Of a stretch of 64,000 nt of DNA, positions 45,474 through 47,788 are shown piece by piece (positions within the stretch are counted from its first letter, which is position 1; every line of letters starts with the position of its first letter). A program made the position numbers and the translations under genes. Origin of the DNA: Blochmannia endosymbiont of Camponotus (Colobopsis) obliquus (GTDB taxonomy: Bacteria; Pseudomonadota; Gammaproteobacteria; Enterobacterales; Enterobacteriaceae); assembly GCF_000973545.1 (NCBI RefSeq), contig NZ_CP010049.1:682001-746000 (forward strand). Direction: 5' to 3'. The notes beneath the pieces were generated by a model. That model had not been told where the DNA came from and ran no database searches. It was given only the letters and a program-made list of their open reading frames with translations.

Positions 45474-45683
45474 TTATTTTATTAAAGCACCGAATTGTTT
45501 GTTAAAACGATTTACACGTCCACGATTATCTATAGCACGTTGTGTGCCTGTATAAAATGAATGACAAAAACCACAAACATCCAAATTAATATTATTATGT
45601 AGAGTAGTTTTTATTTCAATGACGCTGCCACACGAACAAAACGCTTTAATTTCTTTATATTTTGGATGAATATTTTTTTTCAT
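45474..45683 (-). CDS. rpmE: 50S ribosomal protein L31 (zinc type)
   Basis: The 69 residues start [12 protein letters not shown] and keep all four zinc-ligand cysteines (CSCG and CGFC), so this is the C+ form. [10 protein letters not shown] closes the protein. In E. coli rpmE is near metJ-metB, as here, with metJ deleted. Confidence 0.96.
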
Positions 45684-46194: not shown

Positions 46195-46474
46195 GTGATC
46201 AACAAAGACTACATAAATATAGATAGCAAAAAAAAAACAGAAAAAACATAAAAAATTAACATCAAATCATAATAGAATAAAATACACAAGACTAATAATT
46301 ATAACGCTACTTATCTTTTATGTGATCTTTATCTATTATATTTATTCCAACAAACTCCAGAAAAATGCTGTTATATCTAAAACCAAAATATCTGAGTATA
46401 ATCAAAAAATAAGTACAAACCTGCCCCCCAAACCAAAAGAAAAATGGCATTATATTAAAGAACTAAAACGATAA
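46195..46474 (+). pseudogene. ftsN: Truncated cell division protein FtsN, interrupted at an A10 tract (possibly functional by slippage)
   Basis: Reading from GTG at 46195 gives VINKDYINIDSKKK, like the E. coli start MAQRDYV...RRKK, up to an A10 tract at 46,228-46,237. Dropping one A continues in an open frame: a basic stretch, one membrane helix (RLIIITLLIFYVIFIYYIYS, about residues 32-51), a linker, then NLPPKPKEKWHYIKELKR and stop. The last segment matches E. coli LPPKPEERWRYIKELE, the essential FtsN region with key Trp, Tyr and Leu. The predicted product is 92 residues, ending right after this motif and lacking the repeat region and SPOR domain (E. coli FtsN is 319). Position between rpmE and fpr fits the cytR-ftsN-hslVU locus. 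No Shine-Dalgarno is obvious. Confidence 0.75.
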
Positions 46475-47038
46475 AAACTATATAAAATAAATGAACAAAT
46501 TAAAAAACGTCAAAAAATTACGAAATATACCAAAATAACTAAAGTACATATATATGATAAATAACGATAAACTGAACCGCGCCAATATTATCATATTCCT
46601 ATAACTGAGAATTACTGAACGTACCTGTACATAAACTTATAACGGTATACTTAAACATGTTCTGATTGTATGTAAAAATATCAACTTCACATCTAAACCA
46701 TATTCCAAATAGTTTATAAAATATAGACTCATGATATGTACATAAATAATACACCATAACCAGTATGTCTGGTTATACATAAAAATCCTTGACCTATCTA
46801 TATTCCAAAACAAAAAAATTTTAATAAACTAAATAAACAATAATTAATGAAACGTGTAATAAACAAAAACTTAATTAAACTTATTTTATAAACCTAAAAT
46901 GTAACGATATTAACCACTATATTATATTTATATACAATGTTGTAACACAAATTATCTTATCTATAAAAATAACAGAAAATTCAATGACAAAATAGTCACA
47001 GTAATATTTAAATTATAATAATATTTACAGGAAAAAAC
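46475..47038. other. Stretch between ftsN and fpr
   Basis: About 560 bases. The frame after the ftsN stop stays open for about 34 codons (46,475-46,563) and is lysine-rich, perhaps eroded FtsN linker. E. coli has hslV, hslU, menA, rraA and glp genes between ftsN and fpr; none is recognisable. Confidence 0.5.
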
Positions 47039-47788
47039 ATGACAACATGGACTACAGGAAAAATAATACAGATAACACATTGGACAAAGCATCTGTTTAC
47101 AATCATATTACATGCAGCAATAAACCCATTTATTCCAGGACAATTTGCTAAACTAAAATTAAAAACAACAAATAATAAACATATTCAAAGAGCCTACTCA
47201 TACGTCAATACACCAAATAATATCAATTTAGAATTTTACTTAGTATCTATTCCAAATGGCAAACTTAGTCCATTATTATACGTACTCCGTCCTGGAGATG
47301 AAATTTTGATTAGTAAAGAAGCATATGGTACTTTTATACTAGAAACAATTCCAAATTGTCACACCTTATGGATGTTAGCAACTGGTACTGGTATCGGGCC
47401 GTATCTCTCAATCCTTGAATATGGACAAGGATTACAACGTTTTACAAATATTGTATTAGTACATGCTGTACGTTTTGTCAAACATTTAAACTATTTACCA
47501 CACATGTTAAGATTGAAAAAAAAATACAAAAAAAAAATAAAAATACAAACAATTTTAAGCCAAGAAACTATGCCAAATTCGTTAACTGGACGTCTACCAT
47601 ATCTTATAAAAAATGGCCTACTAGAACAAGCTGTAGGATTAACATTAGCTGTTAACAATAGTCATGTTATGTTATGTGGTAACCCTCACATGGTTTATGA
47701 TGTTCAAGAACTATTAAAAAAAACAAGAGGTATGAAAAACAATATAAAAAACAAAATAGGACAAATAACAAAAGAAAAATATTGGTGA
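47039..47788 (+). CDS. fpr: Ferredoxin/flavodoxin-NADP+ reductase
   Basis: FAD enzyme moving electrons between NADPH and flavodoxin/ferredoxin. FAD-binding RAYSYVN, NADP-binding ATGTGIGPYLSIL, MLCGNPHMV and the C-terminal aromatic end KEKYW are present in 249 residues. An AGGA precedes the ATG. Two slippery tracts, A9 at 47,516-47,524 and A10 at 47,528-47,537, lie in frame without breaking it. Confidence 0.95.
   Translation: MTTWTTGKIIQITHWTKHLFTIILHAAINPFIPGQFAKLKLKTTNNKHIQRAYSYVNTPNNINLEFYLVSIPNGKLSPLLYVLRPGDEILISKEAYGTFILETIPNCHTLWMLATGTGIGPYLSILEYGQGLQRFTNIVLVHAVRFVKHLNYLPHMLRLKKKYKKKIKIQTILSQETMPNSLTGRLPYLIKNGLLEQAVGLTLAVNNSHVMLCGNPHMVYDVQELLKKTRGMKNNIKNKIGQITKEKYW

Follow-up and report, generated by a model that had tools for sequence, protein, structure and literature searches.

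In Escherichia coli, FtsN triggers septal wall synthesis, and studies of the smallest sufficient part of the protein have so far used engineered fragments. The locus described here raises the same question for a natural gene. In Blochmannia obliquus, a broken ftsN without a SPOR domain sits in the order rpmE–ftsN–fpr, inside a window of 64,000 nucleotides (positions 682,001–746,000, forward strand, of NZ_CP010049.1, assembly GCF_000973545.1) from a genome of 773,940 bp. A preliminary description of this DNA held that removing one A from a run of ten (46,228–46,237; coordinates are those of the window) gives a 92-codon frame carrying a membrane helix and the essential motif of FtsN, and that reductive evolution had pared the protein to its activating core. 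Is this a working minimal activator, or a gene on its way out?

Table 1. Features of the ftsN locus in the B. obliquus window.
Feature	Position	Strand	Remark
rpmE	45474..45683	-	left neighbour; landmark
ftsN 5' segment	46195..46237	+	GTG start; cytoplasmic N-terminus with K-D-Y (codons 46204–46212); onset of basic stretch
A10 tract	46228..46237	+	in Lys-coding basic stretch; throws the ftsN start out of frame
Stop of unshifted ftsN frame	46249..46251	+	after 18 codons; the frame from GTG 46195 reads VINKDYINIDSKKKTEKT
ftsN 3' segment, shifted frame	46238..46474	+	78 open codons: remaining basic stretch, membrane helix, spacer, essential helix; C-terminal end NLPPKPKEKWHYIKELKR, then stop
Predicted membrane helix	46292..46348	+	top 19-residue hydropathy window, residues 33–51, mean 2.42
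Essential-domain segment	46421..46465	+	LPPKPKEKWHYIKEL, with W84, Y86 and L90 (E. coli W83, Y85 and L89)
fpr	47039..47788	+	right neighbour; landmark

Both the A10 tract and the 92-codon frame were confirmed, through a profile match and the gene order. The read-through product would have K-D-Y as residues 4–6, 11 lysines or arginines ahead of the membrane helix, and a stop two residues after the essential-domain segment, so that the three residues W83, Y85 and L89 are all conserved just before the end, as had been claimed. The conserved N-terminal K-D-Y had not been mentioned. From the sequence, restoration of the frame needs a transcript with one A fewer or two more, or a +1 step of the ribosome; an ordinary −1 frameshift would not restore it. 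The tract is one of five runs of at least ten A in the window. The only terminator-like site found in the ftsN–fpr spacer (0.1 expected) was a hairpin of nine pairs at 46755–46777, which reads TATAACCAGACATACTGGTTATG on the minus strand. A promoter scan at the locus gave 14 sites against 14.4 expected, and no inverted repeats were found there at the setting used.

The openness of the frame is by itself weak evidence, because simulated spacers can hold openings of 83 codons: 325 of 3000 first-order spacers had one somewhere in the six frames, but 4 of 20,000 in one fixed frame. The first figure would suit an opening that arose by chance in AT-rich spacer DNA, an explanation that we nevertheless give practically no weight, since it is refuted by homology to FtsN (profile E-value 6e-8), by the conserved place of the gene and by an intact orthologue in B. 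turneri. The read-through product matched the ftsN model TIGR02223 with an E-value of 6.4e-8 over profile positions 1–91 of 299 (32.5 bits, where the whole-protein cut-off is 107.65 bits) and the ftsN model NF008179 (319 positions) with an E-value of 1.7e-6, likewise under its whole-protein cut-off; both scores fall short because most of the protein, two thirds, is missing. No Pfam family matched the product at its cut-off. The neighbours were named rpmE and fpr by their families, and the order agrees with the neighbourhood of ftsN in E. coli. Homology and gene order together settle the identity: judged by its sequence, the obliquus gene is an ftsN orthologue by descent, and not a complete FtsN, since it has no SPOR domain. 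The genome contained a single TIGR02223 match and no match to the SPOR domain (PF05036) anywhere, and thus no full FtsN was found elsewhere in it; a second full copy was what the preliminary description had named as speaking against its reading.

We compared the locus across 14 Blochmannia genomes: B. obliquus (G000), B. turneri (G005; 749,321 bp) and 12 others (G001–G004 and G006–G013). All 14 contain rpmE. Next to this gene, B. turneri carries an ftsN frame of 94 codons, intact and unshifted, that starts at an ATG, begins with MINKDYVYIN, carries WKYIETL close to its end and has lost the LPPKP part. It is the only genome of the 14 besides obliquus to have ftsN, and the frameshift is absent there. 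In the 12 others no ftsN frame was seen beside rpmE, and a short-FtsN profile matched nowhere in their genomes (3 + 9 genomes, two runs). The comparison with related endosymbionts, which had been suggested as a check, thus supported the motif in the B. turneri copy and at the same time showed that ftsN can be dispensable in the genus. FtsA and FtsL were kept in 14 of 14. A weak SPOR-domain match was seen in B. turneri (G005:C1:575092-575241), in a 228-codon frame of another gene, and none in the 13 other Blochmannia.

In an RpoB tree, the first branch was B. obliquus, followed by B. turneri and after it by two Camponotus symbionts (support 98/91 and 97/95). This order agrees with the available text of PMC4389277, where B. 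obliquus is the earliest diverging Blochmannia lineage sequenced and coevolution of the genus with its hosts is said to span about 40 million years. The simplest history places a short FtsN in the common ancestor, with one loss along the Camponotus line, and the short form is probably ancestral in Blochmannia.

The reduction turned out to be wider than the preliminary description had claimed. TIGR02223 matched in 298 of 392 genomes of the family. Twenty-eight of the smaller matching genomes were re-examined, of which 17 were counted as having an FtsN without SPOR, 8 had FtsN with SPOR in frame, and 3 were dropped: G092 because of in-frame stops, and G108 and G131, in which W, Y and L are kept and stops occur within the matched stretch. 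A profile built on the short form matched 18 of 80 further genomes, giving four short FtsN (B. turneri, G102, G336 and G223), one decayed ftsN (G066) and 13 weak matches that were set aside, none of their frames having W-x-Y-x3-L or a neighbouring hslV. Another 43 genomes, 23 of them new to profiling, yielded no new short FtsN. The total is therefore 22 genomes, namely obliquus, B. turneri and 20 others of the family, mostly with small genomes, including Hartigia pinicola (G021) and Providencia siddallii (G232); the remaining ones would also be insect symbionts, to judge from genome size and kinship. We kept G161, maybe a recent truncation, as well as G060 (138 residues) and G071 (170 residues), both of which retain part of the linker. 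The decayed ftsN of G066 (L073), left out of the 22, has stops and has lost W-x-Y-x3-L, with its K-D-Y start still readable, and gives a picture of decay.

The short proteins are 79–170 residues long (at most 123 in 20 of the 22), and 11 of the 22 stop within six residues of L89. In some genomes hslV follows closely, for example 47 bases past the stop in G031, so the SPOR half is truly absent rather than frameshifted. No SPOR match was found in 14 of the 22 genomes; in the other 8 it lay in another gene. A search with a DNA pattern returned eight records: the two short FtsN of Hartigia pinicola and Providencia siddallii, three with SPOR-like ends and three apparently unrelated. The SPOR-like ends belong to two Enterovibrio metagenome-assembled genomes (L089, L090) and Idiomarina baltica (L092) and were judged by eye; these compact FtsN of 187–188 codons have the SPOR-like part soon after the essential helix, the opposite trimming, with the linker lost and SPOR kept. 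Searching contigs for named relatives with an Fpr pattern gave 139 hits, none confirmed. The short form is patchily distributed in two genera, g45 (present in G270 and G336, undetected in G057, G190 and G391) and g74 (present in G206 and G400, undetected in G086, G280 and G345), and repeated loss after truncation thus seems to have occurred.

Within the 16 positions of the motif, only W83, Y85 and L89 are invariant (22/22). Variation occurs in the polyproline part and at R82, I86, K87 and E88; I86, P76 and P79 are each kept in 19 of the 22. For these counts the motif was located by the pattern W.Y...L; in an unanchored alignment of 19 short FtsN, W, Y and L were again alone in being invariant. 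Ascertainment is unlikely to explain this: the lowest leave-one-out score among the 22 is 44.7 bits, whereas the profile search reached down to about 12 bits, so that a protein without W, Y or L should still have come up. The spacing from membrane helix to W is 26–37 residues in all 22. Near the N-terminus, D-[YF] occurs in 18 of 22 ([KR]-D-[YF] in 17 and D-Y in one more) and is missing from four. By comparison, LPPKPEERW[RK]YIKELE was found in all 10 SPOR-bearing FtsN that could be read by script (of 16 loci given), so that reduced genomes seem to be where most of the variation arose, although the SPOR-bearing G068 already reads LPSKPEERW. In alanine scanning W83, Y85 and L89 were the most sensitive positions, and they are predicted to lie at the FtsL/FtsI interface (PMC10390529, available part), and changes at W83 and Y85 abolish function in E. 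coli (PMC9525312, available part). As far as the accessible text of PMC7613929 goes, the R/K-D-Y motif and basic stretches are the conserved FtsA-interacting part of FtsN, and D5N leaves the affinity for FtsA intact and stops the formation of FtsA double filaments.

Nine pairs of short FtsN were compared for signs of selection. Over the whole frame dN was below dS in all nine, most clearly in G114–G295 (0.27/0.82) and G270–G336 (0.22/0.77); the other pairs were G051–G267 (0.33/0.97), G114–G223 (0.47/1.64), G295–G223 (0.57/1.28), G206–G400 (0.35/0.49), G129–G232 (0.42/0.61), G060–G193 (0.42/0.66) and G000–G005 (0.70/1.30); several of these pairs are far from strong constraint. In all nine, dN of the motif was lower than that of the whole frame. 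For obliquus and B. turneri, dN/dS had been proposed as a check, and it gave a divided answer: the whole frame shows dN below dS, whereas the 15-codon motif shows dN 0.57 above dS 0.39, with dS near saturation. This pair by itself is no proof of constraint. Scored against a profile from which it had been left out, the obliquus frame reached 62.8 bits, the 13th lowest of the 22 (range 44.7–80.5); the decayed G066 gene scored 17.9 bits.

FtsA was present in 22 of 22 genomes with short FtsN and 11 of 11 with other FtsN, compared with 32 of 47 without detected FtsN (80 genomes; Fisher p = 0.0016 for short versus none and 0.0002 for both versus none), a co-occurrence that shared ancestry and genome size also favour. 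An RpoB tree built for 30 genomes served to estimate the number of truncations; it covered 19 of the 22 genomes with short FtsN, 8 with SPOR and 3 lacking FtsN. The minimum number of separate SPOR-half losses was 12 on the best tree and 8–13 over 300 of 1000 bootstrap trees, with roots at inner nodes. A single truncation, in which the eight full-length rows are held together, was rejected on RpoB (AU test, p = 4.5e-7), as was a group of the four Blochmannia with G060, G021 and G193 (p = 8.4e-5); the tested groups were named after a first tree had been seen. Symbiont trees are prone to long-branch attraction, and the quick and the careful RpoB trees disagree on several rows, so we take the counts as lower bounds and say only that the SPOR half was lost in several independent events. 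Taken together, the sequences make the minimal FtsN look like a recurrent, selected state. Truncation seems to have happened repeatedly in evolution and to have spared exactly those three residues picked out by alanine scanning, mostly together with the FtsA hook.

The explanation that we favour, and consider fairly likely as a whole, is that a true ftsN was cut to its working core, with loss of SPOR, a function tied to FtsA and, in obliquus, slippage at the A10 tract. The claim that FtsN was pared to a core held up, the core comprising a cytoplasmic hook, a membrane helix and the essential helix. The shrunken FtsN is probably real, because the copy in the sister B. turneri is unbroken and other small genomes are cut at about the same place. 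SPOR domain and linker would have been lost before the known Blochmannia lineages split, which is the simplest reading because the early-branching B. obliquus and B. turneri share the short form at the same genomic place. Recruitment of FtsN in E. coli depends first on FtsA, which acts via the cytoplasmic tail of FtsN, and later on the SPOR domain, which binds denuded glycan; activation of FtsWI falls to the E domain (PMC9525312). By analogy with that work, and given the conservation, K-D-Y and the basic stretch may tie the short protein to FtsA, the helix would span the membrane, and W-x-Y-x-x-x-L would dock on FtsQLB/FtsI and switch on FtsW–FtsI. Localisation would then run through FtsA and not through SPOR binding to denuded glycan. 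Limited to this route, such cells would divide on FtsA-recruited FtsN without SPOR feedback. In B. obliquus, slippage on the A10 tract might give a fraction of in-frame transcripts and hence a reduced level of product, a weaker step than the others.

This last step has to be weighed against other accounts of the A10 tract. Rescue of the frame by poly(A) slippage is plausible on our analysis, and the available part of PMC3017870 refers to slippage rescue as demonstrated for genes of Blochmannia and Buchnera, and gives 30% full-length transcripts for frameshifted genes in earlier work. A recent pseudogene fits the obliquus copy nearly as well: the short FtsN would have worked until lately, the tract would have slipped in replication, and the gene would be leaving the genome as it did in the Camponotus symbionts. 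The absence of ftsN from 12 of the 14 Blochmannia genomes agrees with this, as does the unusually high number of pseudogenes, 15, given for B. obliquus (PMC4389277, available part); the position of the lesion does not favour slippage over decay, since a first lesion would in any case be expected in the longest A tract. On the other side, the 92 codons hold no second lesion and the profile score is mid-range. We regard decay as possible, though somewhat doubtful.

The count of ten could also be a consensus artefact or vary in the population, leaving the gene intact in many cells. An assembly records only the majority base, and long homopolymers are difficult for PCR-based short reads. We think this improbable, because the published genome represents the majority genotype at 558x Illumina coverage, with no position departing from the read majority (PMC4389277, available part); the frameshift is probably real, and an assembly slip unlikely. 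Translation from GTG 46322, the first common start in the right frame downstream of the tract, would yield a 50-residue protein without the cytoplasmic part. It would also remove about half of the membrane helix and the conserved K-D-Y, and we consider such a start highly improbable.

A broader route for reduced symbionts can be sketched, in which FtsN is cut to FtsA hook, membrane helix and W/Y/L helix, is then lost, and changes in FtsL take over; we rate it as speculative and rather unlikely. If it were true, SPOR-based septal feedback would be dispensable inside host cells, Blochmannia would show both stages, and the altered FtsL residues facing FtsN would be a natural activator bypass. In the 12 Camponotus Blochmannia without FtsN, the C-terminal tail of FtsL is changed, mostly to a QDN- or QNN-like form; it is E-N-I-like in B. 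obliquus and most of the short-FtsN genomes that were read. In E. coli numbering, G012 has R and G006 has S in place of E87, and both G002 and G012 have K in place of E88; E88K is known as an FtsN bypass in E. coli. All 17 short-FtsN genomes read, out of the 22, have E at position 87, as do 11 of 13 without FtsN, which are small numbers. K at 88 occurs also in G193 and G223, both with short FtsN, and speaks against a simple FtsL–FtsN link.

Shrunken ftsN, in Serratia symbiotica, and poly(A)-frameshifted genes, in Blochmannia, are each known already. Two of our genomes, G131 and G173, may be S. symbiotica SCc and STs. In searches to which subscription journals were mostly closed, FtsN together with Blochmannia retrieved only PMC5013485, FtsN with SPOR domain and insect endosymbionts retrieved nothing, and we found no report of ftsN in B. 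obliquus or B. turneri, of a recurrent cut at the same boundary, or of W/Y/L invariance across short forms. The gene is not named in the main text of PMC3017870 or PMC4389277. The accessible text of PMC5091035 calls ftsN degraded in a Pantoea symbiont, and that of a review states that the obligate intracellular bacteria covered encode no FtsN homologue (PMC10591338); short forms may have been missed in that survey.

The closest precedent is S. symbiotica SCc and STs, where ftsN is cut to a small part and the sufficiency of FtsN 1–119 is cited (PMC5013485, of 2016, available part). That case, too, concerns an insect symbiont and the same kind of reduction, and it comes with the argument that an N-terminal FtsN piece suffices in E. 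coli; it was described for one genus and among several dwindling genes. Here the lineage is another, the cut lies two residues past L89, a sister copy is intact, a frameshift is present and many genera are involved. With the poly(A)-frameshifted Blochmannia genes (PMC3017870 and PMC4389277, available parts) the obliquus copy shares a single indel in a long A tract, an otherwise open frame and slippage as the proposed rescue. Relative to E. coli FtsN (TIGR02223), it keeps the N-terminal R/K-D-Y and basic stretch, the single membrane helix and the W83-x-Y85-x3-L89 essential helix; it lacks the linker and SPOR, has 92 residues against the 319 positions of the full model (NF008179), and is out of frame at its poly(A) tract. 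The engineered FtsN-E fragments of E. coli likewise contain the essential helix without SPOR and support constriction when overproduced (PMC9525312 and PMC10390529, available parts), whereas the symbiont form is natural, membrane-anchored and retains the FtsA-binding tail. The collection of short FtsN is a ready set of candidate natural minimal activators.
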